In this document: piece by piece, positions 6,914 through 30,070 of the stretch
How positions within the stretch are numbered: the stretch's first letter is position 1
How the letters are laid out: each line of letters begins with the position of its first letter
Position numbers and translations under genes: made by a program
Notes under the pieces: model-generated
Database searches by the model: none
Seen by the model: the letters and a program-made list of their open reading frames with translations, nothing else
Told to the model about the DNA's origin: nothing
DNA from: a virus
Reading direction: 5' to 3' (one strand)
Length of the DNA stretch: 33,727 bases
Virus record (IMG/VR): IMGVR_UViG_3300023179_007132
Location: 1-33,727 of that record

Positions 6914-7294
6914 ATGAGATTAACAATAAAACAGCTAAAACGTGTAATCAAAGAAGCGGTAATGAATGGTCGTAAAGGTCGGAAACGTGTAGTCAGAGAA
7001 GCGGCAATGAAACGTATGTCCGAGAAAAGAGCAAATGAAATATTTGACGCTATCAGTGACGTTCATGATCTTGTAGAAGAAGAGGGTACTTTGGTCCCTT
7101 GGTCAGATGTGGTAGCCCACGCTAGGAGCAAAGGAGTGAAAACTACAGAAGATGAAATCATCGATTTCATTGACACTTATAGCGGTGACGGCCCTGAATC
7201 ACGAACCCTTGTAGGTGGGTATTTAGATAGCTGGACGTATACTAACCATATCGAGGATGATGGGATCAGGGTATATGATCCTATGGCACTGTGA
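6914..7294 (+). CDS. tagged small protein, paralogue 1 (126 residues)
   Basis: The protein begins with the basic amphipathic helix RLTIKQLKRVIKEAV, also found in the next gene and, as LTYNQLKKIIKE, at 29022-29396. A second, similar basic segment (KRVVREAAMKR, residues 24-34) may be an internal copy. The body (residues 35-126) is acidic and helical, with RANEIFDA, a PW-x-x-V segment and a final YDPMAL, all paralleled in its neighbour. No enzyme motif is seen. The IKE triplet fits the (I/L)-x-E rule of T4-type prohead protease sites, so the helix may be a cleaved capsid-targeting peptide; this is inference. The start has AAGGAG nine bases upstream. Confidence 0.8.
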   Translation: MRLTIKQLKRVIKEAVMNGRKGRKRVVREAAMKRMSEKRANEIFDAISDVHDLVEEEGTLVPWSDVVAHARSKGVKTTEDEIIDFIDTYSGDGPESRTLVGGYLDSWTYTNHIEDDGIRVYDPMAL

Positions 7295-7311: not shown

Positions 7312-7376
7312 TGGGAGGGTAAAACACTATATATTTGTATTGGGAAAACTATAGACCCTTACAAGGAATTATTGAT
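7312..7376 (+). repeat. duplicated upstream block, copy 2
   Basis: This is the second copy of the block at 6853-6913, immediately before the second paralogue. It keeps AAAACACTATATATTTGTAT and the AAGGAATTATTGATATG start region. DNA similarity remains high through the first 20 or so codons of both genes and then falls sharply. Confidence 0.75.
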
Positions 7377-7727
7377 ATGAGATTAACAGTAAAACAGCTA
7401 AAACGTATAATCAAAGAAGCGGTAATGGATGCAAGTAGAGATGAAAGTATGAGTATGGAAAGGGCGAATGAAATATTTGACGCACTTGATACTCTACATG
7501 AGGAATTAAACGAAGAAAGCATCTTGATGCCTTGGCCGACTGTTATCAAAGAAATGAAAAAAAGAGGAGTAGAAACTTCAAAAGAAGAAATAATGGATTT
7601 TATCAAAACTTTTAAAGATTCTTCAAGCAGCTTGGGAGCAGATTTGGCTCGTTGGTTAAAAACGAATAAACCAAAAGAACAAGGATTAGGTATCTATGAT
7701 CCATCAAGTCCGAGGGCATCCTTATAA
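7377..7727 (+). CDS. tagged small protein, paralogue 2 (116 residues)
   Basis: This is a clear paralogue of the preceding gene. It shares RLTVKQLKRIIKEAVM at the N-terminus, ERANEIFDAL, MPWPTV, the EEIMDFIKTF helix and a YDPSS ending. Outside the first 20 residues identity is only moderate, while the promoter, leader and tag codons are nearly unchanged. The ATG at 7377 is chosen over an upstream in-frame start at 7335 because it matches the paralogue and has AAGGA upstream. A strong terminator follows. Function is unknown; a capsid-packaged protein is possible. Confidence 0.8.
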   Translation: MRLTVKQLKRIIKEAVMDASRDESMSMERANEIFDALDTLHEELNEESILMPWPTVIKEMKKRGVETSKEEIMDFIKTFKDSSSSLGADLARWLKTNKPKEQGLGIYDPSSPRASL

Positions 7728-8750: not shown

Positions 8751-9349
8751 GAAACAGCTTTTTCTTTACCTTTGCCTTGCACACAAGCCGCTTTAATTGC
8801 TTGTGAAAGCACAATTGAAATCCAAGGTTCACCTTGGGTTGGTAGGTCTTCTTTTTGTCCCTTACTGCCTACCATAGACACAGCATACCATTCATCAATA
8901 TCAATCTCAACGTTATTCTTGGAAAGAGTATAAAGACTTAGTTGAGATACTGGAATATGTTGAAACCGATCTGCAACGTTGTAATAAACACCAAGCTTAT
9001 CACGATGCCACTCACTGTTGTTGTCTACATAAAATTCTTTGTTTTCTGTTCCAACTTTGCCAATGTCATGAAAAAGACTACAAAGAATAATGCTTTGAGC
9101 CGCAAGCGTGTCAGTAAGATTGTATACTTGACGTAGTTTGGCAGCGTTTTGAAGAACACGTAGAGAATGTTCAACAAGTCCACCGGGATGACAGCAAGTA
9201 TAATCCCGCTTTGTTGAAGCGGGAGCAAGCATGATTCGTTCACTGTTGTTGTCCACATATTTTAGAATGTTTCCTCCCTTGCTTCCAAGCTTTGCCGCTT
9301 GAGTTTTAAACAGCTCAAAGTTCTTGATAATAATTTGTTCTTGGTTCAT
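8741..9349 (-). CDS. HD-domain phosphohydrolase
   Basis: The 202-residue protein has the HD metal-binding pattern: His54 in CCHPGGLVEHS, His61, and FHDIGK with His94-Asp95. The layout (GGLVEHSLRVL, then HDIGK about 30 residues on) resembles YhaM-type nucleases and other HD nucleotide phosphohydrolases. Its start overlaps the polymerase stop as ATGA, so the two are translationally coupled and probably act together, for example by adjusting dNTP pools or trimming nucleic acid; the substrate cannot be told from sequence. The C-terminus is short and ends in a basic then Val-rich tail. Confidence 0.85.
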   Translation of the reverse strand: MNQEQIIIKNFELFKTQAAKLGSKGGNILKYVDNNSERIMLAPASTKRDYTCCHPGGLVEHSLRVLQNAAKLRQVYNLTDTLAAQSIILCSLFHDIGKVGTENKEFYVDNNSEWHRDKLGVYYNVADRFQHIPVSQLSLYTLSKNNVEIDIDEWYAVSMVGSKGQKEDLPTQGEPWISIVLSQAIKAACVQGKGKEKAVSVQ

Positions 9350-10464
9350 AATGAAAACCCTTTGTCTGTGGACATATGAAACGTAGTGGATTCTAAATTT
9401 ATAATGTCTACACTTCCTATCTTACACAACCCATTAATCAAACTAAAACTATTTTCATTTACATCCAAAATCAATGCGTCATGCAAGATAAACAAAGGCA
9501 CAATATCTTCAAACTTGTCTAACTCATTAACATAATCAAGAATGTTCTTGAATCCCAGCATTGCTACATCAACAGCAGTGCTTTGAACATAATGGTTTAC
9601 AAGAGTATGTGTTGATTCTGTTTTAACTCTTCTACCATAAAAGTTGGTGATAAACTTATAACCGGTTTGCTTCCATTCATTTAAAAGCTTTTGTTGCAAA
9701 GCTTTTAATCCAAACCATTCAGCAATGTTATCAACAACGGTTTCTAGATTCATAACGTTGGGTATGCGTTGGCGTAGAGTTTCTAACCCTGCACCATATA
9801 ACTCCGACAACACAATTTTTTTAACCACATCTCTTGTTACTTCTGGGTTATTCACAAACAATGAACAACGAACTTGTTCATATATGTCTTTCTCTATCTC
9901 TTCTATTGGTTGTGTTCCACTAGTAGCTAACAACACTCTTGGTTCCAATGATTTATAGTCCAAAGAATATATTGCACCGTTGCTGTGTTTTGATTCTAAA
10001 ACACTTCGATAAATCTTTGGAAGATGAAGCAAGGTAGGTCCGTTAATGGTTTTAAACCTTCCAGTTACATTGCTTACACGATCATATTCAACAACTTGTG
10101 CATATCCTTCGTTGTTTGGTTTAAATGAAGCAATATGCTTTGTTGCATCAAGCTTTGAATATTGTTCATAACGCTCAACGTTAATCTTTGCTGGTTGAAG
10201 ATATTCAAACACTTTTTGCGTTGGAATATAAACGTTTTCAAGATAGCTTAAATCTAAATTGTTAAGTTCGTCTTGAAACCTTTTTTGATCCCTTTCAATC
10301 TCGTTATAAAGCTTTTCTGGCAGGGTTAAATGCCAAGGCACAGCAGAGCCTTGAAGCTTTGGAGACAAGCCTCTATAAGCCCGTATAAAGCGTTCTGGGG
10401 CTTGTTGTGGTTGCTTGACAAGGTACAGTTGTGATACTAGTTGCTCAACTTCATCCATGACCAT
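9346..10464 (-). CDS. compact family A DNA polymerase (polymerase domain only)
   Basis: The 372-residue protein contains the family A polymerase motifs: TGRFKTINGP (about 134-143), motif A SLDYKSLEPRVLLA with catalytic Asp169, motif B with Arg211, Lys215/216 and Tyr223-Gly, QSTAVDVA (about 294-301) and motif C LFILHDALI with catalytic Asp329. It is odd in two ways: no 3'-5' exonuclease domain is encoded, since the gene starts about 130 residues before motif C-terminal signatures of the core, and motif C reads HDA instead of the usual HDE. No frameshift or leftover exonuclease sequence exists upstream, where the baseplate gene ends 39 bases away. Thus a split polymerase with the exonuclease elsewhere, or a specialised enzyme, is likely. 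No clear ribosome-binding site precedes the ATG at 10464 or the alternative at 10458. Confidence 0.88.
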   Translation of the reverse strand: MVMDEVEQLVSQLYLVKQPQQAPERFIRAYRGLSPKLQGSAVPWHLTLPEKLYNEIERDQKRFQDELNNLDLSYLENVYIPTQKVFEYLQPAKINVERYEQYSKLDATKHIASFKPNNEGYAQVVEYDRVSNVTGRFKTINGPTLLHLPKIYRSVLESKHSNGAIYSLDYKSLEPRVLLATSGTQPIEEIEKDIYEQVRCSLFVNNPEVTRDVVKKIVLSELYGAGLETLRQRIPNVMNLETVVDNIAEWFGLKALQQKLLNEWKQTGYKFITNFYGRRVKTESTHTLVNHYVQSTAVDVAMLGFKNILDYVNELDKFEDIVPLFILHDALILDVNENSFSLINGLCKIGSVDIINLESTTFHMSTDKGFSL

Positions 10465-10503: not shown

Positions 10504-13500
10504 TTAGCCCCGAGGCTGTGGTGCGCTTCTTGGTGTTGTAGGACCGTTGATTGGATCGCCTTGCATTTCGCTCAAAGTTATTTCAGCAGAGTTAATTTGA
10601 CCGATAAGGTTACGATATTGACCAAATGCATCAACGGCTGTGAATTTAATAGTTGTTTCAAATGACCCAGCTTCGATTTTATGTTGCAAGCCTGTGACGT
10701 AATAAATGTTATCAATTGAAGTGTTTGTGTTGTAATCGATAAACAATTCTTGACCGTAACGCAACAAAGGACAACCCAAAGAAGTTAAATTTACTTCAAC
10801 GGGATACACGCTTAAAGGTACACCACCAACTTGCTCTCCATTAGGCTGAATAGGTGAAGCATTAAGAGAACGCAACATGTTGATTGTGTTTAAGTTAGGA
10901 TCGCTCATTGAGCCAACGTTAGAAGAACGAACAGTTGTTCCCATCGCACCATAGATGATATGAGGAATTCCTCTCATAACAAATTCTTTAAGTTGTTGAG
11001 CACCTCCAACAAATCGATATTGCTCAACAGCTCTACCATTAGCGTCAGTTGCTTGTTGTATTCTTTCGATTAATCTTGGTGGTGCCGAACAACGTTGCAC
11101 AATATCGCTTTGTAGCTGCCGCCAGTTTTCTCTTAACACTCCAATATCTTCTCTACGTTCTCTGGCTTGAGTTTCAAGAGCTTGACGTTGGGCATTGTCG
11201 CCGGGATAAGAACTTAAAACACTTAAAACATTGTTTGTTCCAAGAGATAGAATTTCTCTATAGCTACTGTTTGGGGAACAAGCTTTGTCATATATGTGAA
11301 TCTTGAGAATGCTTCTTCCTTGTTGTATTCTTCCATCAATAACAGCTTCAGTTGCTTCGATTTCAAAAGTTAACTGTGGCGGAACAAAATCCGTATGGTG
11401 CCCAATGTTGTTTCGTTGCATCCGAACGTACATTTCACTATCGAAATTACGATTGTTTGGTACCAATTCATTTCTATCATATTTGTACAAGTCATTTATT
11501 CCATATGCAGGATTTAACACATCGTCAACGATTTTTGTTGATATGAAATTCATGAACTCGCTAACGCTTAAGTTAACGGATCTACCAACGTTTTCCATGC
11601 GTAGTCTACCATATTCTCTAACGAAATAATCTGTTTGCACAGGAAACTGAGATATGTTACAATGACTCATGATACTAGCTCGATTGTTAAAGTTATAAAA
11701 ATATAACTGTACTTCTTCGAATTTTGGATTGTCACCTGTTTTCAAAGCAGCTAAAGGTTTTCCAACAAATGCAGAAATCAAAGTTCCTAAAGAAACAACT
11801 GCCGCACCATTAAATCGATCAACTGGGTTTTCACCCGCTACGGTTCGAGCCGAGGCCGCATTATTGTTGGTTGAAGGGAGTTGAGTGTTTGAAATCTCTG
11901 GTTGCAAACCACGAGTTGTTCGTGTGGTATCGATTCTTGTTTTCAATTTATCCCAAGCTTCGGCGGGCATTTCTGACAAAAAAGTATCTCCGTACCAATT
12001 ATCTCTTGTTCTTCTTGTTCCTTGAGGAACTGGATTTAATTTATTTAGAATTTCTCGCACCTCTTGGTTGAGTGTTCTGGCAATGGCAGAAATTGCAGAG
12101 TTTGTAGATGGGCTAGTGGCACTACCACCAAGATTCGTTGTTCCAGATATAAGCTGACGTAGTGCTCGTTGTAATTCTATTGCGTTTTGTCTTCTTCCAA
12201 TATTTCGGTTTGAACTGCTTGCTAAACCATTTAAATCTGTTTGCAGTTTTCGCAAAGAATCCAAAACTTCTTTTGACAAAAGTAAATTGTTCGTTGCATC
12301 ACTGGCTGCACTTAATCCTTGAGCCCCACGAACTTCTGTTCTTCGTTGATTGGTATTTCCGTTACGGTTTTCTGGTGGAGGAGGAAACACCAATCCAGAA
12401 AGTTGGTTAATGGTTTCAGAAAGTCTTTCGATTTGTCTTATTTGAGTTTGTATGCGTCCGGCTGCGTCTTGTCCAATAATTGAAAGTTCGGTTATTTCAG
12501 AAGAACCTCGGCCAATCAAACTTAAAGTGAGATTAACTTGCCCAACATCATCAAAGCTAAAGTTGCTTCCTACAACAGTGAAATGATCAACTGCTCTTGT
12601 AAGGTTTAAAAGATCAGCATAAGGGTTTTCGCCTAAACGATCTGGATGTGACCAACCATATTCTACTTCTATGAAAGATTCACCATATCGATCTGGTTTG
12701 ATGAAATCTGCAAACTCACCCATTCTAGATCTGTCATGCAGAACTATTTCCAACGTTGCTGTGCGAGTTCCTTGTAAGCCGTATGCGCTTTTTACATCCA
12801 TACTAAATGATTTAATGGAAGCCAATGGACGCATTGGATCGATTATTGGAGCAAGATAGTTTTCTCTGTTTCTTGCTGTTTCTTGATTGATCATTGTTTG
12901 TGGCGCACGAAACAATTCAAGACCTGTTACAGTATAGTTCGGAAAATCTCTAGCTGTTGCTAGTTGACCGGGAATAGAACCTGTTGGTACTTGGCTAGCT
13001 AAAGCTATAGCTCTTATTGGTAAGTCTTCTATTGTTGATGCTATTGTTTTAGCTCCTTCAACGAATTTTTGCAATGTAATCGCAGCAAGTTTGTTTTCTT
13101 CAAAAACTTGTCTTGATGAATAAAACTTTACGTTCATTACTGGTATTGCTCTTGTCATTTCCAACGCAGGCATACCATTAAAAAACACAGTGAGAAATTC
13201 TCCGTTTTTTTCTCCCGGTATCAACAATGGATGTTCTGCTCTAATAACAGAAATTCTTTTTTTAAAACGTGTGTCTTCGTTTGCCATTACCGGCAAAGCT
13301 CGATCTAAGTCGTTAAATATAATTTTATCTGGCTTGCTGTTAATTAATTCTGTTACTGTTGTTATTGCTTCTGGGTCAACGTGAATTTTTACACATCTTG
13401 AAATTGAATGTTTGATATTTGAAAGGTTTTGTCCGGTACCTTGCAGTAATCCGTTAAGTTGAGTCATTATCGCTGTACTGTCGCCGTCGCTCGGCAATAT

Positions 13501-13818
13501 TTTCTTTGACCCACCACCTGTGTCTAACAATATAGCAAAAACAGGTGCCAACAAAGGATCAACTCTAACATTTAAATCTCTTCTAGAAGCTGCAACGCTT
13601 GAAGCTGATCCGGCAGCTCCTCTAGTTTCTGGATTGGTTTCAGCAGCAGCAGCGTTACCAATCGCTTGAGACAAAGCAAAATAATTCGCTAATTCTGTAG
13701 CTGTTGTGAAACCAAAATAAACACCAAAGATTCTCTTTAATTCACCTAATCTTGTGTTTTTGATTGCACGAATGGCGGCGGGATTTAAAACTGAGTTCTC
13801 GGTATCTAGGTACAACAT
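10504..13818 (-). CDS. giant baseplate protein, hub-like (1,104 residues)
   Basis: This protein lies in the tail module and has features of large-phage baseplate proteins rather than of enzymes. A beta-rich section around residues 340-440 includes SFSMDVKSAYG, FIKPDRYGESFIEVEYGWSHP and FTVVGSNFSFDD, and the C-terminal part (about 980-1080) has QELFIDYNTNTSIDNIYYV then GLQHKIEAGSF and FTAVDAFGQYRNL, a pattern common in hub proteins of the gp27/gpD class. The middle (about 450-640) is helical and low complexity. Assignment to hub is by pattern, not a firm homology. It starts at the ATG at 13818, four bases after the stop of the homing endonuclease; before that insertion it would have followed the LysM-like gene directly. 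Confidence 0.75.
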   Translation of the reverse strand: MLYLDTENSVLNPAAIRAIKNTRLGELKRIFGVYFGFTTATELANYFALSQAIGNAAAAETNPETRGAAGSASSVAASRRDLNVRVDPLLAPVFAILLDTGGGSKKILPSDGDSTAIMTQLNGLLQGTGQNLSNIKHSISRCVKIHVDPEAITTVTELINSKPDKIIFNDLDRALPVMANEDTRFKKRISVIRAEHPLLIPGEKNGEFLTVFFNGMPALEMTRAIPVMNVKFYSSRQVFEENKLAAITLQKFVEGAKTIASTIEDLPIRAIALASQVPTGSIPGQLATARDFPNYTVTGLELFRAPQTMINQETARNRENYLAPIIDPMRPLASIKSFSMDVKSAYGLQGTRTATLEIVLHDRSRMGEFADFIKPDRYGESFIEVEYGWSHPDRLGENPYADLLNLTRAVDHFTVVGSNFSFDDVGQVNLTLSLIGRGSSEITELSIIGQDAAGRIQTQIRQIERLSETINQLSGLVFPPPPENRNGNTNQRRTEVRGAQGLSAASDATNNLLLSKEVLDSLRKLQTDLNGLASSSNRNIGRRQNAIELQRALRQLISGTTNLGGSATSPSTNSAISAIARTLNQEVREILNKLNPVPQGTRRTRDNWYGDTFLSEMPAEAWDKLKTRIDTTRTTRGLQPEISNTQLPSTNNNAASARTVAGENPVDRFNGAAVVSLGTLISAFVGKPLAALKTGDNPKFEEVQLYFYNFNNRASIMSHCNISQFPVQTDYFVREYGRLRMENVGRSVNLSVSEFMNFISTKIVDDVLNPAYGINDLYKYDRNELVPNNRNFDSEMYVRMQRNNIGHHTDFVPPQLTFEIEATEAVIDGRIQQGRSILKIHIYDKACSPNSSYREILSLGTNNVLSVLSSYPGDNAQRQALETQARERREDIGVLRENWRQLQSDIVQRCSAPPRLIERIQQATDANGRAVEQYRFVGGAQQLKEFVMRGIPHIIYGAMGTTVRSSNVGSMSDPNLNTINMLRSLNASPIQPNGEQVGGVPLSVYPVEVNLTSLGCPLLRYGQELFIDYNTNTSIDNIYYVTGLQHKIEAGSFETTIKFTAVDAFGQYRNLIGQINSAEITLSEMQGDPINGPTTPRSAPQPRG

Positions 13819-13822
13819 TGTT

Positions 13823-14827
13823 TTATCCTAAGAACTGAAGTGCTTGCTGTAGGTTTGGAATCACGATTCTTGTGTCTACCATCTCAAAAATATATCCTTT
13901 TACCGATTTTACTTTGCCTTTAAAAAATTGATAAATGTATGAATCATATATTCCCAACTCTTCACACGCTTTCTTTATACTTGGGTAGATAGTCTCTAAA
14001 CCAGTATCAAGACTTATTGCTTTTATAGGTTTCTGAAGTTTCTCTATTCGTTTACGCTTGGTTTCTTCTGATTGTTTTTTTCCAAGATTGGCTTCTCTGA
14101 GTTTTCTTTTTATATCTGGATTATTTGCATACTGCTCTTTCGCTCTCAGAGACATCTTCTCGACTTCTTCTTTTGTGCATACTTTACCTTTGTTCCAAGC
14201 TGGTTTTCCTTTCTTAGAAAGAATCGAAGCTTCTATCGCTTTTTGCCTTATCTCTGGATTCATTAAACGTTCTTTATGTTTTCCTTTGTTCGACTTTGAA
14301 CACTTATGCTTGGACTCTTCGGTGTGTTTTTTACCTATATTTCGTTCTCGTAACTTTTGTCTTGTCTCCTCTGAAACAATATGCCCACGCAACTTTTCAG
14401 ATATAACCTTCTTTTCTTCTTCACTCCATCGATGTTTATTTGGATTTTCTTTTCTTTTTGCCGCCGTATTCTCTGGGTTGTATGAGTGACACTTTGGACC
14501 TCTCTTATTAACAGAGCGTGTTAAGTTATAACACTGTTGTTGGTCATCATAATGTTGATCGATATATCTTTGTTCCACTAACAGTCTGTTCTCTTGTGGT
14601 CCATCAATCACTTCAATAACTTCGAACACAAAAACATCTTCACCACACTTGTTGTAATCAGCTTGCAAAAACTTATTGCTGTGATTGCCGCTCTTAAGAC
14701 GTTTGGTGTGCTCTCTCCAACGTTCTTTGAATTCTCTAGCAGAACCAATATAGACTCTGCCATTAAGCTTGTTGGTCAGTTTATAAACACCAGATTTAAG
14801 TGAAAAACCATTGTAATCGTATTCCAT
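13823..14827 (-). CDS. GIY-YIG homing endonuclease fused to the end of the LysM-like gene
   Basis: The 334-residue protein has an N-terminal GIY-YIG nuclease domain (GVY 13-15, YIG 26-28, Arg37 in KERWREH, Glu85 in LLVEQRYID), then several NUMOD3-type DNA-binding repeats (about 140-240; SEETRQKLRERNIGKKH, SEETKRKRIEKL) and a NUMOD1/helix-turn-helix segment (about 268-315). This is the layout of I-TevI and Seg-type mobile endonucleases. The last 16 residues, TRIVIPNLQQALQFLG, are the same as the end of the LysM-like baseplate protein, and its DNA is a 48/49 match. It has a ribosome-binding site (AGAGGTGAT) and is in frame with the duplicated end, so it uses the old stop codon of the baseplate gene. 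Confidence 0.95.
   Translation of the reverse strand: MEYDYNGFSLKSGVYKLTNKLNGRVYIGSAREFKERWREHTKRLKSGNHSNKFLQADYNKCGEDVFVFEVIEVIDGPQENRLLVEQRYIDQHYDDQQQCYNLTRSVNKRGPKCHSYNPENTAAKRKENPNKHRWSEEEKKVISEKLRGHIVSEETRQKLRERNIGKKHTEESKHKCSKSNKGKHKERLMNPEIRQKAIEASILSKKGKPAWNKGKVCTKEEVEKMSLRAKEQYANNPDIKRKLREANLGKKQSEETKRKRIEKLQKPIKAISLDTGLETIYPSIKKACEELGIYDSYIYQFFKGKVKSVKGYIFEMVDTRIVIPNLQQALQFLG
13827..13875 (-). repeat. 49-base direct repeat, downstream copy (original 3' end)
   Basis: This copy forms the last codons of the homing endonuclease. It matches 14873-14921 at 48 of 49 positions; the one difference (13850 versus 14896) is a silent Leu codon change. The stop codon TAA follows, then four bases and the start of the giant baseplate gene. 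Confidence 0.97.
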
Positions 14828-14868
14828 TTATCACCTCTATGATATATAGTAGAGAGGGGAGGTTTCTC

Positions 14869-15162
14869 TCAACCTAAGAACTGAAGTGCTTGCTGGAGGT
14901 TTGGAATCACGATTCTTGTGTTGGGAGGAATTTGAACTGACCAACCAATGTTACTTGCAGCGGCAATAAGCCAGTAATATTTTCCATCACCATAATATTG
15001 TCCAGCTAATACATCTAAACGTATAACTTCTTTCAAGAAGATAACTGTAACTTGAATTTGATTGTTTGCAATTGCATTTCGAATTTTAGACACAGTATCG
15101 CTTGTACCATACTGAGCACTGAAATTGATTCTAGGAGTTAAAAGATATCTGCTAGTTGCCAT
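14869..15162 (-). CDS. LysM-like baseplate protein (gp53/gpX-type), 97 residues
   Basis: The protein carries the LysM/tail-protein-X pattern: IRLDVLAGQYYGDGKYYWLIAAASN (about residues 48-72) then a turn and PPNTRIVIPN, which in such proteins binds peptidoglycan or forms a baseplate joint. Length fits small LysM tail proteins such as P2 gpX and the gp53 C-terminal domain of T4. It sits between two giant baseplate genes. Its last 17 codons are duplicated at the end of the homing endonuclease gene, and its current stop (TGA) differs from that of the downstream copy (TAA), so its 3' end was probably rebuilt by the insertion. It starts at the ATG at 15162, eight bases after the upstream stop. Confidence 0.82.
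   Translation of the reverse strand: MATSRYLLTPRINFSAQYGTSDTVSKIRNAIANNQIQVTVIFLKEVIRLDVLAGQYYGDGKYYWLIAAASNIGWSVQIPPNTRIVIPNLQQALQFLG
14873..14921 (-). repeat. 49-base direct repeat, upstream copy (rebuilt 3' end)
   Basis: This copy supplies the C-terminus of the LysM-like protein. Recombination between it and 13827-13875 would remove 1,046 bases including the homing endonuclease and leave an intact baseplate gene directly followed by the giant baseplate gene. Confidence 0.97.
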
Positions 15163-15170
15163 TTCTTAAC

Positions 15171-18100
15171 TCAATCTTTCCTGTTATAATACAAAGGAAC
15201 TGTACCGTCAACCGCAAACTTATCAATGTTTCCAACTTGATTTGTAGCTGGCTGGCCAGCTCTAGGTGTTTGTGTCTGTACAGAAGAGTCGGATGGATTC
15301 TGAATAAAGTAGTTTGAAGCTTTACCAACCGGCCAAATTGGTGCGTTCATGATGCCATTTGCATCAAGACCCGGTGTGATATCATGGATAACAGCCATTT
15401 GTAGCTGGATTGTAACAAACATAGGAGCCCGCAACAACTCACTACCATCAGTTCCCCAGTTAGCTTTTGCTTCACTATAGTCAACCTTAAAGCTTGTTAT
15501 AACTCCTGCCAGACCTTTGCCACCAGAAGAGTTAAAAGCTTTCATGATGGGGTTTCTAGTGTCATCGTAAAATACATTCGGAGTTAATGAACTCAAAGCT
15601 GCTTCTTGTGCCGCAGGAGTTGTAGCTTGCCCACTTTCTTGTGCTTGTGTGGATTGTTCATTGCTTGCCAACGAAGCAAACAAAGCTCTCGTGTTATCAT
15701 CGTCAAACATGCCGTTTCTAGTTTGATTGAGCTCATTAAGTTTGATTAATATTGGTGTTGGTTCGAGGCCGTTTGCTGTAACAATATTTATTGAAGGCCG
15801 AGATCGAATATCTGCGGGGCTTGACCCCGGAGCAACAGCATCAAAAATATACTTTTCTGGTACAATTCTTATACCAGCGTCACGACCAGAAGTTTGCACG
15901 CTATCGACTCTAACAATAATCCTGCCATAAGGATTGCTTCTATTTGTTGGAATAGTGCCTACTGTTGCCCCGCCTGCTAGTTTATATCGATCAAGGTTTG
16001 GAATACTGTTAAAAACTAGTTTATCATTTGGAGAAAAAACATCAGCCAGCGCATAAGTTCCAACAGAAGAACCAGAACGCCTAGTTCTTTCGCTTGTTGA
16101 AGAAGCCGGTTGCACATTTTGTAAACCAAGTCGATAGGTGCCAGCAGCAATATTGCTCATATTATTTGCTTTTGTTCGGTATGTTTGAGCCGAAGTTTGC
16201 GCTGGATTTCCTGCCTGCGGGGCTGGTGGTGTGCGTTGTTGTGTTGCACCACGGCTTCCGTTAACGTTATATTCGCTGTTGGTTGTTATACCAAACAACC
16301 TTGCGACAGCCATCTTGCTGTAGTTTGCTTTATAAAGATCACCAAGACGCAAACGTATCACAGGTGTTGCGCCGGGAATCTGCGAAAAAGGCTGAGTAAA
16401 CTTTAAGTTTCCAACTTCAATTTTTCTACCTTGTGTCCATTGCGGATATATCATCATTGCCAACTTGTTGATTTTATACCACATAAGATCATGATCGTTT
16501 ACATTTGTTGCAATCATTTTAAAGTTTACCGATATGTTTCTTGATGTTCCTTTATAGATTTGTACTTTGTCCATGCGCCCATAACCGTCTTGGGCACTAT
16601 ATTCGATTTGAAAATCTTCGCTAGCATCTTCTAAAAACGCATGGAATGACAAGATTTCATTTGTTCTAAGATCATGAATGTAAAACGGCATATAATCTGC
16701 TTCTAATCTATTTTCCACATCGTCAACAACACTTTTTGGAATCCTGCCATTTTGAAGAGCTTGTTCTTCATCGAATCCAAGAAAGTCAGACATATTCCCA
16801 ACGGCAATACCTCTTTCTACAGAACTTAAACCCATTTCTTGCCAACGACTCACTGATCCCGATGGTGCCTTGCCTATTGTACTAAAAGCGATAGTTTGAT
16901 TGTATATACCTGCGTTTGCATTCGGGCCACGAACATCGCTACCAACCAAAGGAAGACTAAGCATCCCTGCCTGTGAGTTATTCCAAATCAAACCACCTGC
17001 GCTTGTACGAGATTTTGCTATAGCATTGCTTCGATTGTCTGGAAGACTGTCAACATACGAAACGTTACTACCTGTTAATGATAGACTTCCACCAAATGCA
17101 TTTCTATTTATATTTGTTACGGCTTCGATTGAAATGTCATTTTCAAACTTAATTTTGTCACCAATACCCAACAAAACATTTATAAAGCGAACAATCTTAA
17201 GATCACGAATCTTGCGGATAAGGTTTCCAATACCAGCAATAGATACACCACCGCTAAAGTCTACCGCAGTGTCTTCAATCAATGTAATCCCGCTTCTTAA
17301 AAGCTCTCTAAGGATAACATTTAATCTTCCGCTTTCTGTTAGAACCTTTAAAGATGCATTTGCAGCTTGTTGTCCTGCTGTTGCTGTAGTTGCGAGACTT
17401 CCTCCAAAAAGAAAACTAAAACCAAAAAACTCTTGGATGCCTGCATTTAAACAATCTTCTGTTTGGTGACGGGTATAAGAAAATATACCTTGAGTGCCAA
17501 GAAACTGTGAAATGATATCTCCACCATCAATATTGGCTAATGGATACACACCAGAGTTTTGCAAAACAGATGCGCCCAACAATCTTTGTTTTTCATTATT
17601 GTCGAGGTACGCAAATGATTTTGCAGCACTTGGATCAGGATCTTTTCGCAAGTTTATAAGCGCAGTAAGAACGTTTAACAACAACACAAATGCCAAAATC
17701 ATTGCAACCGCAAGAGCAATTTGACCTAATGAAATAAGAGAATCAAACTGTGCGTAAACGTTATAAAACGATCCATATGTTTGAACGTCTTTGGTTGTGT
17801 CGAAAAAGTTATTGTTTTCTGGTTGTTCAACACCAGTTAGCTTTTTTATTTGATACGCTGGAGTGAATCTATTAAGACTTACACGCTTACCAATTCTTTG
17901 TGGCGAAGGGAAAGCCATTCTAGCTTCGGCTTCTATTTTAGAACCTGCGTTTTCTTCTCTTATAGTATAATCGAATCCTGCATCACCTTGAACAGCTTCA
18001 AACATTAAGTTAAGACCAATAACCTTCATTTGATCGATGGTCATTGCAGGAGCATCGGTTTGTGTTTCCCCTGTTGTTCTTACATAACTCCCAGAAACAT

Positions 18101-24900: not shown

Positions 24901-25250
24901 GTGAACCCAGTTTTAAATCCATTAAGGAACTCGGCAGGAACGCTGATTTTCTTAACTTGTTCACCAATGTTTTTTATAATTTTTTCAAACTTGCCAAGTT
25001 CTTTTTCTCCTACGCTTTTAACTTCTTTGCCAAACTCTTTTGTTTGTTCTTGAGCCTCACGAAGAGATTCTGTTACTTCTTTGACTTTAGCAGAATCGAT
25101 ATCGCCAAAACATTCTTGCGCTTTACACAAAGCATCAACAAGTTGAGCTTGAGCATGATAAGCTTCGGTTTGCTTTTCAACTTGTGCAGTGATTTGCTGC
25201 ATAGTTGCTAGCAGTTGTTGTGCAATCTTAAGGTTGTCGGCTGTTGCCAT
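18966..25250 (-). CDS. tape measure protein, 2,094 residues
   Basis: This is the longest gene and has the marks of a tape measure: an N-terminal coiled-coil (about residues 1-120), long helical repeats, and a cluster of about eight hydrophobic segments between residues about 750 and 1,075 (VVIAATVKILMPLILSIA, GIAGVSLIILPAIALVAKLA, GAIATLFVALSVLG). The C-terminal 300 residues are Ser/Thr-rich with LRNLGSGTAP. Tape measures set tail length and enter the host envelope with DNA. At the usual 0.15 nm per residue this would give a tail of about 310 nm, exceptionally long; if true the virus would look like a long-tailed myovirus. It starts at the ATG at 25250 with AGGAG upstream. No peptidase or lysozyme motif was spotted. 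Confidence 0.93.
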   Translation of the reverse strand: MATADNLKIAQQLLATMQQITAQVEKQTEAYHAQAQLVDALCKAQECFGDIDSAKVKEVTESLREAQEQTKEFGKEVKSVGEKELGKFEKIIKNIGEQVKKISVPAEFLNGFKTGFTLSKNLFKNILSLGGSAFGLLKDMGKILLSLPGRLLDYFQGAAGSGTDEYKSALEELRKEFGDLDIGTSAAIKNMTESTKDLGESGLALSRVFGYGRAGLAALLRENMALIKEMGPLGNRLAESIKGAEGEFTLLRKATAISGEAFKSFQLSVEESGGDGVKAVREMTKSIAQFTREFGISSKEYGRDLDFMMKDTQTFGIMAPKEMLKVSTYAKRLGVSVESLKKVVEKSLNFESAAEQAAKLSEAFNIQIDAMKQMKETDPTKKLDNIRQAFFKTGRSIEQLNVQERRYLGTQLDMNDAELRLAFSQKNRTLSGAALDAQMKKSKKTQISQAEAMQNLAKSIERLIQSGSPMKGGFFETFFKGFEGGIKRTKEFREIVYNVQRIMRTILLAGREVGRMFVKEFPSIKQILGGIADMFDPARFRELLKGVVEEFKKFFKTVQTDPKAGVEAFMKNMKKIFFDFFTKGAPAGAKFLDGLKTFYKTIGLIFVEGLRQALMGLKNVLGIVIGFIRDPSSLKRLAQQAGDGISGVFSQAFTYVVQELGPLLKEVGGQIVELMTLLFEKYIKPHLAKLVMALFGPALFLGVTRALGAAILKVGFEKVITSFVNRIPIPPAAGAAGGAADGAGGAAGAASGASGRAGLVSFAANLVKIAAVLVVIAATVKILMPLILSIARDIENSGLKPESITFTAVLLGIMGVLFIAIGRLMQGVAKAKFEPGAVKQVLGIAGVSLIILPAIALVAKLAVWLLGGYPAEEIAKTAFMMTVFTGLFAAIAGLITYMSINEEKITKGFKQAMYALFIAGVALAVVGAMALAALKYFKDFTQEQVNVTISAIGGMTFLFGAIATLFVALSVLGTYVSGSGGAAVGLAVGGFVAAAVTLGLLAIGAKKIINHFKDVDEKQAKIAFMIMDNMVDLFMKVAATIALLTGAAILLKKYGGWAGAAALAIIMYAVYHTMKEMLGFAKDFITVVAKSDITEEKAKAVSTVLDGLAKMLGAVVDGIAKISLISRASVVGAILGVDFGGLNLGKIKDVLVGKDGIMIMIQKMLQGEAGKPGLLQIINQLGDDPAQLKTKADVFTSVAAGFAAIMKPIVDIIKAVTDASGNSLLGVLFGGNPENEIRQVIKLLLGEGTTGIFTLLFGSTNGLVPKIIEQIKNINVGQGDALKAGAEVFKSVATGIAAIVQVVPKMIGAVTELADEIPDENVIPTLDKVKDIFTSIISHTSGIITSVGTAITNLLKETTVTPEKLKEAGAIGEIFKGVGEVLKAVTPSPATLKAFQETSSSSGEYSSSSSINSEKLRSYITDMTTNLRNIVGNNDSGILGMLRLIVNMPFSVEDIDKLKGVAPIISAIGNLITNIVPSQNILDRITQDVSGNDSQGGKAGDNRNRIKWFMENVTNNINAIIPTIKTFIVDVARAISNIDASKIEGLKVISPIIAAVGSLIGSIMPATNILERITTTSGAGGLSEDQMKKNKEKITDFFTSINGYITALMFGEQTSSGGTQATGGIVLFINKMKDILNETGLDETRIKGLTVFSEIIKTISSMIVPLIGAVHELTSGVSSAGDAGRIYQAGTQITAVIQALSSSIQSVFNLIPTLISAIAGMNFDTKAIDSKIRAVKGIFELVGVIAMMTTGMSEEVTDARGVKTKKIRDILEMINPPLNLIIGLFSKRDIGSGAGTVRGYGATTEAAFNALASFRLPDGLASKAKVIKTVFEALKALVDATKSLKEMADQNQTVIPQTILDKPLQSINNMLASLTSTGTSGGTNPLMNTDRGNPFSKLGGIADRLRTAGVRFGGIYGGLRGMLDATNSLSRMQSTGLSSNTLSLNLSKLLGNDSAATGNDRSVLQVLESYFGASTAQDTANRFSNLKDNISRTILTPVRDMIQSYNDFSRQLRNLGSGTAPLQVTLDNLGSRLGATRRVTISNAAVNATINVNVRMEVGDVVQALHTHTSSTRTQANPRTFKPDVFTNAYPNSP

Positions 25251-25314
25251 TTATAAAACGCTCCTGCTTGTGAATAAGTATCGATACGAACATTTTGTTG
25301 GTAGTATTTATCAT

Positions 25315-25680
25315 ATGAACTGGATGCTTATTATGAACGAGAAACAAGCAGAAAAAATATTAACAGAATTCTTGCGTGTGCCTTTTATGGATAATCCCAT
25401 ATCTTTAGCCGTAAGCAACTATAAAATGACCACCCTTGGTAAATTAGTGTTTGCTTCTATTATTACCACAATGGTTACAGGTCAACGTTCACCATTCAAA
25501 CTTTCTGGCGATCCAAGAAAGATTGAAATACTTTCAAGAGCAGTTCAAAGCAGCAAACGTTTTCAAGACGAAATCAAACGTCCCGGTGCCAGCGTTGATT
25601 CTGTTATGCGTGCTTTAGATGCGAAAAATCTTGATGCAAATAATTTTCGTTCGATTTTTGGTGTTGATTGGCCGCTATAG
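25315..25680 (+). CDS. hypothetical protein, about 121 residues
   Basis: This rightward gene is divergent from the tape-measure gene. The body has a hydrophobic stretch (about residues 40-62, TTLGKLVFASIITTMVTG) and a helical C-terminal part (SRAVQSSKRFQDEIKRP, SVDSVMRALDAKNLDANNF) with no known motif. The ATG at 25315 is used; 25333 is an equally good alternative. No strong ribosome-binding site is visible. The reading frame extends upstream into the tape-measure start, but that part is antisense and unlikely to be translated. Confidence 0.68.
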   Translation: MNWMLIMNEKQAEKILTEFLRVPFMDNPISLAVSNYKMTTLGKLVFASIITTMVTGQRSPFKLSGDPRKIEILSRAVQSSKRFQDEIKRPGASVDSVMRALDAKNLDANNFRSIFGVDWPL

Positions 25681-25721
25681 TTTGTAAAACCTGATGTTAC
25701 TCATAACTACAACATATAATC

Positions 25722-27418: not shown

Positions 27419-27658
27419 TTAGGTAAATTTTTGAGTTCTTGGGTTAACGAACTGTCTTGCTTTACCTGTTAACGCTCTTAAATCGGGTGTGTTATGATGT
27501 GGAGCTTTAGATGGAATATCAGCGTTCTTTTCTGTTGCTTTAGAAATTTCTTTGTTGATACGTTCTATGAGCCAACGTTTATAAGCTACAGGAAAGTTTA
27601 GATATTCGGAGTAAGTCATTCCGTAGTAGTAGCCCAGCAAAAACATTGGTTCAAGCAA
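27419..27658 (-). CDS. downstream frame of the gp26-like gene, likely made by frameshifting
   Basis: The 79-residue frame (start shown at a TTG; the first ATG is four codons further in) encodes LGYYYGMTYSEYLNFPVAYKRWLIERINKEI, a pattern typical of phage tail-assembly chaperone C-terminal extensions. The frame is open back to 27715, overlapping the end of the gp26-like gene by 44 bases, and codes LAFFGLTPDDVEAVLLEP there. The start region has no ribosome-binding site. Together this favours expression as a fusion with the gp26-like protein by ribosomal slippage at 27689-27695. Independent translation is still possible. Confidence 0.72.
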   Translation of the reverse strand: MLEPMFLLGYYYGMTYSEYLNFPVAYKRWLIERINKEISKATEKNADIPSKAPHHNTPDLRALTGKARQFVNPRTQKFT

Positions 27659-28644: not shown

Positions 28645-29025
28645 TTAAAGAGTTGGAAGAGGTTTTTCTACAGTATTACCAGAAGCTAGTTTGCTTTTCT
28701 TTGTATCTTTTTCTTCTGGTCGAGATGTAAGATTCTTGACAACTTCAGCAGCGTGAACAACAGCTTCAATCATCTTGCTATGCATATCTGCCATAGCTTG
28801 TGCATATATTTGTTGCTCTTCATCTGTAAGTTCATCTGGTTCTTTAATTTGCAAAGCGTCAACAATGTCTTCTTCAAACTTCATTGCGGTTTGTTGTGCT
28901 TGAATGGTTAATGAACGAATAGCTTGAAATTTCTTACCTTCTTTAAGCATTTCAATCTTACGTTCAACCATAAGAGATACAAGCTTTTGTAGTTTTGCTT
29001 CTGTAATCATTGGTTCCTCTTTCAT
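28645..29025 (-). CDS. helical protein of the tagged-protein operon, 126 residues
   Basis: The protein is helical and charged with an N-terminal helix ITEAKLQKLVSLMVERKIEML, a middle of DALQIKEPDELTDEEQQIYAQ and a basic-ended C-terminus. It starts at the ATG at 29025 (alternative 29010) overlapping the upstream gene by ATGA. It is the last gene of a tightly coupled group of three with tag-like helices. No family is recognised. Confidence 0.76.
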   Translation of the reverse strand: MKEEPMITEAKLQKLVSLMVERKIEMLKEGKKFQAIRSLTIQAQQTAMKFEEDIVDALQIKEPDELTDEEQQIYAQAMADMHSKMIEAVVHAAEVVKNLTSRPEEKDTKKSKLASGNTVEKPLPTL

Positions 29026-29396
29026 TGCTTGTATTTTAGATAGTTATGAATTGAATCAATCATTGCTGATGCAACAGCAATTTTTTCTTGAACCCATTCT
29101 TCATTGTCATCAATGTCAGCAGCAATCTTGCGAAGCTCATTAGCTTTATCACTAAGTCTTGCAAGATTAGCCATAATCATGCTTTTTTCACCTTGGTCAT
29201 CATCGTCCCAGTGTGAATCATCATGGTAATCATCATCCATACCGGGAAACAATCCAGATTTAATGTTTGAATCACCAAGGCTGACAACTTTAATGCCGTT
29301 CATTGGTGAAGGCATATCGTGCATATCTTGCATTGCTTCGCAAGCACACTCTTTTATGATTTTCTTAAGTTGATTATAAGTAAGCTTTTTCTTCAT
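29022..29396 (-). CDS. tagged small protein with LTYNQLKKIIKE N-terminus
   Basis: This 124-residue protein begins with the helix KKKLTYNQLKKIIKEC, which aligns with LTIKQLKRVIKE and LTVKQLKRIIKE of the paralogue pair at 6914-7727. The middle is very acidic (DDDYHDDSHWDDDDQGE), the C-terminal half helical. The IKE triplet fits a prohead-protease type site. It starts at the ATG at 29396 with TGATG overlap to the upstream gene; a GTG at 29399 would add one residue. No catalytic motif is seen. Confidence 0.78.
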   Translation of the reverse strand: MKKKLTYNQLKKIIKECACEAMQDMHDMPSPMNGIKVVSLGDSNIKSGLFPGMDDDYHDDSHWDDDDQGEKSMIMANLARLSDKANELRKIAADIDDNEEWVQEKIAVASAMIDSIHNYLKYKQ

Positions 29397-30070
29397 CACT
29401 TCGCCCTTTTGCTTAATTCCTTATAAAGTAAATATTCTCGTAAAGTAGTTTGTAATCTAGATTCTTTTACTGGTGCAGCAGGAGCAGCAGGAGCAGCAGG
29501 AGCAGCAGGTGGTGTTGCAGCAGGAGTTTCTGTAGATGCTGTTTCATCTTCAGAACCTTCTTCTTCTGTTTTGTCTTCTTCTTCGACTTTTTCTTCTGCT
29601 TCTTCTTTCGCTTTTTCTGGGACTTTAAACCTAAAGGTTTTAACAATGTGTTTAACAGCTTTTTCGATGTTTTCTGGAACTTCTTTTGTTTCTTCTTCGC
29701 CTTGCTTTTCTTTTTTCGCTTTGTTCGTTACATAAGCAACCAAAGTTTGAGTTTGTTCTTTCTCTGCACCGTTTTGCAACGCAGACAACAACGTTTTCTT
29801 GATATCAATAGCTGTCTTCGAAGCTAGTTTTTCCATAGTTTTTTCAAGATCATCTTTTGGTTCTTCTTCATCCCCACCTTCTTCATCGCTGCTTTCTTCT
29901 CCCCCAGAAGCAGAAGGATCGGCAGGAGGTGTTCCTCCTGCTGCTGGATCAGCCGGTGGGGTTGCTGGAGCAGCGGGAGCCGCTGGAGGTGCAGCTTGCT
30001 CAAACAAAAATCTATCAATTTCTTCTTCGATAATCTTGAGTAATATTTTTTGATATATCACGGTATTCAT
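29396..30070 (-). CDS. Ala/Pro/Glu-rich protein with PVKES tag, 224 residues
   Basis: The protein starts with a hydrophobic-charged helix (YQKILLKIIEEEIDRFLFEQ), passes through a Pro/Ala linker (24-55), a highly acidic central part with a helix (about 60-150, containing IKKTLLSALQNG and HIVKTFRFKVPEK), a second Ala/Pro linker from a GGAGCAGCA repeat, and ends PVKESRLQTTLREYLLYKELSKRAK. The ending resembles that of the 1395-1775 protein. The acidic, linker-rich build suits a scaffold or internal head protein, but no homolog is recognised. The start is the ATG at 30070. Confidence 0.76.
   Translation of the reverse strand: MNTVIYQKILLKIIEEEIDRFLFEQAAPPAAPAAPATPPADPAAGGTPPADPSASGGEESSDEEGGDEEEPKDDLEKTMEKLASKTAIDIKKTLLSALQNGAEKEQTQTLVAYVTNKAKKEKQGEEETKEVPENIEKAVKHIVKTFRFKVPEKAKEEAEEKVEEEDKTEEEGSEDETASTETPAATPPAAPAAPAAPAAPVKESRLQTTLREYLLYKELSKRAK

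Follow-up and report, generated by a model that had tools for sequence, protein, structure and literature searches.

A gene for a GIY-YIG homing endonuclease (homing endonuclease gene, HEG) was found between two nearly identical copies of the 3′ end of a baseplate gene in a 33.7-kb record of an uncultured virus, a large phage; the whole length of 33,727 nucleotides is referred to as the window. This arrangement was probably created by a free-standing GIY-YIG homing element that invaded the coding sequence of a conserved gene at its 3′ end. Comparison of related loci brings out the features on which this explanation builds, namely the duplication, its polarity at one homologous locus, distinct allele states, multiple targets and a target-specific C-terminal half of the enzyme.

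Organization of the locus

On the minus strand, the window encodes, in reading order, a 1194-aa protein of the baseplate region, the wedge protein and, behind a 41-nt leader, the endonuclease, followed after 4 nt by a 1104-aa protein in the position of the baseplate hub. The following features are of relevance:

14869–15162, minus strand: target gene, intact, for a gp53/LysM-like baseplate wedge protein of 97 aa (open reading frame; PHROG match)
14873–14921, minus strand: proximal copy of the wedge 3′ end, presumably the end carried in by the element (48/49 identity to 13827–13875; leader directly following; polarity from the homologous PhoH locus)
14828–14868, minus strand: leader of the element (leader alignment and folds); its portion 14853–14866 (GAAACCTCCCCTCT) is the counterpart of a 5′ hairpin arm, the hairpin spanning the ribosome-binding site of the HEG in most relatives
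13823–14827, minus strand: GIY-YIG HEG, 334 aa, the product comprising GIY-YIG, NUMOD3, an HTH-like C-terminal domain and a 16-aa tail derived from the target (domain matches; homologues end at the start of the tail)
13827–13875, minus strand: distal copy, probably the displaced original wedge 3′ end, in frame as the C-terminus of the HEG product and providing the HEG stop codon
10504–13818, minus strand: downstream gene, 1104 aa, baseplate hub position (directly behind the wedge gene in close relatives)
25681–25702, plus strand (within 25678–25705): TTTGTAAAACCTGATGTTACTC, directly behind the stop codon of the gene at 25189–25680 and likely left as a scar by a second element that was lost
27419–27658, minus strand: gene with neither HEG nor scar in the window, yet an HEG target at loci L083/L085 and scarred in the 260-kb record IMGVR_UViG_3300042453_005404 (G001)

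The wedge protein is 81–86% identical to its counterpart in five IMG/VR contigs. Its gene matches the PHROG family 'baseplate wedge subunit' (E = 6.9e-6) as well as baseplate gp16 and LysM baseplate chains (E = 0.0035–0.04), and the target is putatively assigned as a gp53/LysM-type baseplate protein, by remote similarity only. For the endonuclease, Pfam matches were obtained to GIY-YIG (PF01541, E = 1.3e-10), NUMOD3 (E = 2.7e-7) and an I-HmuI NUMOD-like domain (E = 3e-10), and the PDB entries of the I-TevI catalytic domain (1mk0/1ln0, E = 1e-14) and the I-HmuI chain 1u3e (E = 2e-5) were matched as well. R36 of the enzyme aligns with the catalytic arginine R27 of I-TevI, and the catalytic residues Glu85 and Asn101 were assigned by hand via motif spacing. 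The protein combines a GIY-YIG catalytic domain with separate C-terminal DNA-binding modules, as is the case in I-TevI-type homing endonucleases. Neither a group I intron nor an intein fits the locus: the gene upstream of the HEG is whole and terminates at a stop codon of its own, no Rfam match was obtained in 13500–15500 at E values up to 1, and no splicing domain was found.

Elsewhere in the window, a short family A DNA polymerase-like protein of 372 aa is encoded directly behind the baseplate genes (9346–10464, minus strand). Small proteins without Pfam match that carry an N-terminal motif like MRLTIKQLKRVIKEAV are encoded at 6914–7294 (plus strand), 7335–7727 (plus strand) and 29022–29399 (minus strand), two of them being adjacent paralogues.

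The duplicated gene end and the endonuclease tail

As first noticed in a sequence-only reading of the window, positions 13827–13875 and 14873–14921 are identical in 48 of 49 bases, both copies are in frame and the single change is silent (Leu codon CTA in the HEG, CTC in the baseplate gene). The shared C-terminal ending of the two proteins, TRIVIPNLQQALQFLG, was likewise confirmed. In the HEG, the 49 bases are followed only by the final base and the stop codon, and their alignment reached a score of 94, with the best of 58 unrelated gene-end comparisons that served as null scoring 28. Endonuclease homologues that possess the C-terminal domain stop exactly where the copy starts: CHPC1152 has an end of the type ..KGYTFEFVE and L013 ends in ..KGYTFKYLEE, each followed by the stop, and the window enzyme reads ..KGYIFEMVD and continues with TRIVIP, the tail behind this junction being TRIVIPNLQQALQFLG up to the stop. 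Since the homologues end where the copy starts, the tail represents an addition from the target gene to an enzyme without a stop codon of its own.

As the record is a metagenomic virus contig, it has to be considered that two strains were erroneously joined at a repeat during assembly. Such an artefact is extremely unlikely, because the copies differ by one base and the join between HEG and copy is in frame, lying within a single reading frame at the natural end of the HEG; moreover, the same architecture is found in other contigs.

Related endonuclease loci and their gene ends

A profile scan yielded 80 related HEG loci, and relatives of the window endonuclease were present in records of the window's own relatives. 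In most of the closer members a conserved gene precedes the HEG, and 40–80 nt separate its stop codon from the HEG start, the genes in this position encoding tail sheath, gp6-like baseplate wedge, PhoH and connector-like proteins, among others. Identity to the relatives in viral contigs attains about 60% in the catalytic domain only; no close relatives were found in isolate phages, and the gene-end pattern was absent from bacterial and archaeal genome contigs. In a 241-kb record, a related enzyme is encoded behind a PhoH gene, and both the enzyme and the PhoH protein end with LATISSEIL.

A systematic test for gene-end duplications revealed four clear cases, namely the window (49 nt), the PhoH loci L090 (34 nt within the gene, 48 nt in all) and L107 (about 36–40 nt), and L102 (about 60 nt, diverged), all of which show the order of full-length target gene, HEG and displaced 3′ fragment. 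Weak gene-end alignments at L094, L086 and L099–L101/L129 lay slightly above the nulls and were not counted, being gappy or oddly placed. Because most occupied loci have no gene-end duplication of more than 30 nt, showing short leader repeats or none instead, the full unit is seen in a minority of the tested loci. Two findings named beforehand as speaking against an insertion, namely the duplication in relatives lacking the endonuclease and the same tail at unrelated locations, were not made: no endonuclease-less relative carries the duplication, and related enzymes carry the end of their own upstream gene or none.

In the window, L090 and L107 the copies are in frame and the stop position of the gene is also the stop of the HEG. 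At L102, the frames differ: the displaced end reads NFLVKTDPTNHPNTYSKVR up to the stop (gene: NFLVRVPGHPNTYVKVR) in a frame other than that of the HEG, which stops within this displaced end. Three in-frame copies out of four are not significant and the frame may be due to chance. At L070, L072, L075, L077, L081, L087 and L098, the stop of the HEG is the TAA within a second copy of the leader-arm motif described below. Borrowing of the stop codon from the target or scar side looks general, as the stops sit in displaced ends or second leader-arm copies, and since these endonucleases commonly obtain their stop in this way, the in-frame fusion of HEG and baseplate gene end in the window may be incidental. 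A functional fusion, in which the baseplate piece is kept since the tail itself acts, for example in stability or particle association, would agree with the intact, in-frame tail that has a silent change only and with the in-frame tails of two PhoH elements. It is nevertheless very unlikely, given that the tail varies by locus, is missing in most relatives and has lost its frame in L102.

Polarity of the duplication

Which of the two copies is the original could be addressed at L090. When the distal copy of this PhoH locus and the DNA following it are compared with the HEG-less PhoH allele of G001, they align over the full length (score 154); the proximal copy scores 70, and its alignment is lost soon past the stop codon. 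The DNA downstream of the distal copy is what remains of an older element, with the beginning of the HEG still present. Because the distal side matches G001 throughout, the distal copy at L090 is the original and the proximal copy the new one. For the window, we infer the same polarity, with the distal copy as original end and the proximal copy as probable newcomer. Here, the hub gene immediately follows the distal copy, its ATG standing at a compact spacing of 4 nt from the displaced stop codon, and the SD-like AGGA of the hub gene overlaps the end of the displaced copy.

The wedge gene was found in 16 IMG/VR contigs (40–86% identity), none of which contains an HEG behind it or a second copy of its end, and a close empty allele of the window's wedge gene was not found among the records. 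About 20 nt past the proximal stop codon of the window also follow the wedge gene in the HEG-less L001–L005 and L014. A first interpretation of five HEG-less relatives, with the proximal copy as the resident, was dropped, the shared stretch being an arm of the HEG leader. Similarity of the HEG-less scar alleles to the junction of distal copy and hub gene in the window was detected for L014 (shuffle p = 0.0015) and for L004, L005, L001 and L015 (shuffle p = 0.01–0.03); the scar alleles L002 and L003 showed no such similarity. These alleles lend modest support to the polarity of the window. Synonymous divergence, compared across eight close wedge genes, lies at about 0.38–0.49 along the gene and drops from 0.45 to 0.16 in codons 81–97, with the drop setting in where the duplicated segment begins. 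The low divergence at the gene end fits a putative target at the DNA level and/or a spread of gene ends through homing.

The HEG could also have inserted between the two genes and left the baseplate gene in front of it unchanged, in which case the proximal copy would be original and the distal copy a later product of microhomology template switching or faulty repair. The 20 nt shared with HEG-less relatives would be in line with this, as would candidate microhomologies at the end of the HEG (ACACAAG) and at the Shine-Dalgarno sequence of the hub gene (TAGG, a motif common to the gene end and hub leader of L004/L005). For phage T4, illegitimate homing on one side at such microhomologies is on record (PMC2988022). 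However, these 20 nt match the 5′ arm of the HEG leader hairpin, follow many genes but only at HEG-target sites, and are absent in empty alleles. In addition, the copy continuous with old flanking DNA at L090 is the distal one, and the same accident would have to be assumed for three further gene-end duplications. Intergenic entry is therefore considered quite improbable, and invasion of the gene end itself remains the preferred explanation.

Leader, scars and loss of elements

The leader at 14828–14868 between wedge gene and HEG, which had been absent from the earlier description of the locus, is part of the element. Leaders of the family have the form TAAAAC-N4-CCTCYCTACTATATACTAATAGGAGAGGTAACGTTTTATGGA, the arms of which pair across the ribosome-binding site in most members. 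Folding, judged from single-sequence folds against shuffles, gave a mean z of −3.2 over 21 loci, and the window's own leader folds weakly (z −0.35). RNAalifold predicted no pairs on a MAFFT alignment of the leaders, probably due to misaligned arms, and a pattern search for further leaders yielded no new family member. At L073 (around 2930–2975) the 5′ leader arm occurs twice in tandem as a 22-nt repeat, and once in the near-identical L074.

Alleles of the target genes occur in three states, empty, occupied and scarred. Within the window, the wedge gene is occupied, the gene ending at 25680 is scarred and the gene at 27419–27658 is empty. The leader-arm motif is rare, and its sites examined in G001 (two weaker pattern matches were left out) lie 5–6 nt behind the stop codons of genes that are HEG targets elsewhere, or flank the HEG of G001 itself, L144 representing a new gene in this series. 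Empty alleles free of the motif were found for the wedge gene (L016, L017), PhoH (L059, L061), tail sheath (L163, L165, L166), the gp6-like gene (L171, L172) and two small genes. The gene at 25189–25680 is elsewhere followed by a full HEG (L082), by the same scar (G001) or by no motif (L157–L159), and 25681–25702 of the window is likely the scar of a lost second element. It had been suggested that recombination between the two copies would restore the baseplate gene exactly. This holds for such an event, but natural loss is usually inexact, because most HEG-less alleles in close relatives have retained the leader's 5′ arm.

Alternatively, the motif might be a native docking or regulatory site used by HEGs, and the gene-end duplication a side effect of insertion. 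The motif at L144, which follows a gene never seen with an HEG, and HEGs flanked by direct motif repeats (L064/L065, L070/L072, L075) would be compatible with a native site. Yet close empty alleles of a single gene family lack the motif: the 89–90% identical gp6-like genes of G001 and G006 have TAGGAGACACCATG, with the motif being present in the occupied L070/L075. Furthermore, the motif equals the 5′ arm of the HEG's own hairpin, and G001 PhoH retains a longer remnant that includes the HEG start. A native site is thus regarded as unlikely and the motif is taken as a scar.

Some further observations concern individual target genes. The leader-arm scar at position 1033 of L144 (G001 83700–85600) lies behind a gene whose product ends with INMFTLVFQ, which predicts a further target. 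In L083 and L085, the HEG stop is followed by a second leader arm, which comes together with the target's stop codon (CTAGCCAAAACG..), suggesting successive invasions of one gene. In G001, PhoH forms one open frame of 925 codons (235790–238414) with about 1.2 kb of in-frame extra sequence, probably an intein, and a decayed HEG start follows its 3′ end (L060).

Target specificity of the endonucleases

For 21 enzymes, the N-terminal 105 residues and the rest of the protein were compared separately with respect to the target gene. The N-terminal part showed a median similarity of 0.70 for the same versus 0.68 for different targets, whereas the corresponding values of the remainder were 0.61 and 0.11. 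The nearest C-terminal neighbour shares the target in 19 of 21 enzymes (shuffles: mean 2.7, maximum 11), compared to 7 of 21 for the nearest neighbour of the N-terminal half, and targets are intermixed in a tree of N-terminal halves. The nearest C-terminal neighbour of the window enzyme is L062, the sole other enzyme behind a wedge gene. Because the C-terminal half follows the target gene, these results support the wedge gene as real target, and they suggest that new targets may be gained through exchange of the specificity half.

Proposed model of invasion by gene-end replacement

In the model that we infer for cleavage, repair pathway, pairing and resistance of the carried end to cutting, the mobile unit would consist of the last codons and stop of the target, a short leader whose hairpin covers the ribosome-binding site, and an endonuclease gene that lacks a stop codon; the original gene end, displaced to a position behind the HEG, would act as right-hand homology arm. 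The endonuclease would cut an empty allele within the last codons of the target gene; for the window, such an allele, passing from the wedge stop straight to the hub start, would read TTCTTAGGATAAAACAATG. The left side of the break would be repaired from the donor, whereby the carried end, the leader and the HEG are copied in, and the displaced end of the donor would pair with the right side. The alleles with and without HEG agree with cutting of an empty allele and copying into it. The target would be rebuilt at once and its old end would turn into the tail and stop codon of the endonuclease; in the window, the displaced end would also retain the SD-like sequence of the next gene. Later decay or deletion, usually with the 5′ arm of the leader left as a scar, would leave the gene open to new elements. 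An occupied allele may be protected if recognition reaches past the stop codon, where the two ends differ completely. Carried and displaced end of the window are one silent base apart, and protection is the least explained step of the model.

Much of the insertion scenario originally put forward is retained here, that is, insertion into the target's 3′ end, restoration of the gene by an end that the element carried, and recruitment of the displaced end with its stop codon by the endonuclease. Its remaining parts need revision in that natural loss is usually inexact, the in-frame fusion is probably incidental, and rebuilding of a gene without splicing has precedents.

Significance and comparison with known systems

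We consider it about an even chance that the window represents a phage homing-element family that spreads by gene 3′-end replacement, with a shared catalytic half and leader, an exchanged specificity half and lasting scars behind essential structural genes. If this is true, a homing strategy of yeast nuclei and fungal mitochondria would extend to phages, with a substitute ending in place of an intron or intein. Every invasion would then rewrite the end of an essential gene, which would be a concrete reason for gene-end exchange between phages, and past invasions and losses could be read from the scars. With their matching C-terminal halves, the many targets would also offer a natural set for learning how GIY-YIG enzymes acquire targets.

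The free-standing GIY-YIG enzymes of phage T4, the Seg proteins, and I-TevI resemble the window element in enzyme class, phage host, intergenic position beside conserved genes, hairpins at the ribosome-binding site and homing by break repair (PMC2988022). However, cleavage by the free-standing T4 enzymes takes place at a distance of hundreds to thousands of bp from the enzyme gene, and duplicated target ends go unmentioned in a review on T4 homing endonucleases (PMC2988022). No phage precedent was found in the literature searched, which is weak evidence of absence as most subscription journals lay outside it.

The proposed rebuilding of the target without splicing is less unusual than had been assumed, as precedents exist outside phages. 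In the WHO homing elements of Torulaspora and Lachancea yeasts, the endonuclease lies between a full-length target gene whose 3′ end was replaced and the old end, which is displaced; these elements have invaded repeatedly, decayed copies and some targets besides the main one are known, and the displaced fragment was proposed as homology arm (PMC7282813). Gene order and logic match those of the window element. In contrast, WHO enzymes are of an intein-like LAGLIDADG type with zinc finger, their FBA1 fragments of about 400 bp lie outside the endonuclease ORF, nuclear genes are affected and cleavage has been tested, whereas the window family has GIY-YIG enzymes, fragments of 34–62 nt that provide the HEG stop, and phage genes as targets. 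As a GIY-YIG enzyme without intein-like LAGLIDADG or zinc-finger domain among its Pfam matches, the window endonuclease does not belong to the WHO protein family. Endonuclease ORFs with C-terminal duplications were furthermore described from fungal mitochondria, namely for atp6 of Allomyces and atp6, atp9, cox2 and nad3 of Glomus (PMC3630166). Similar to the window, a substitute 3′ end is brought in and the native end is left behind the endonuclease, sometimes in phase, and the atp9 enzyme is a GIY-YIG endonuclease (PMC3630166). The inserted ends are, however, strongly diverged there, with 64–81% identity to the gene of a relative (PMC3630166), whereas the carried end of the window is nearly identical and has its own stop codon, and the displaced end is fused to the HEG. 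The yeast WHO elements together with these fungal mitochondrial endonuclease ORFs are the closest precedents of the element described here.
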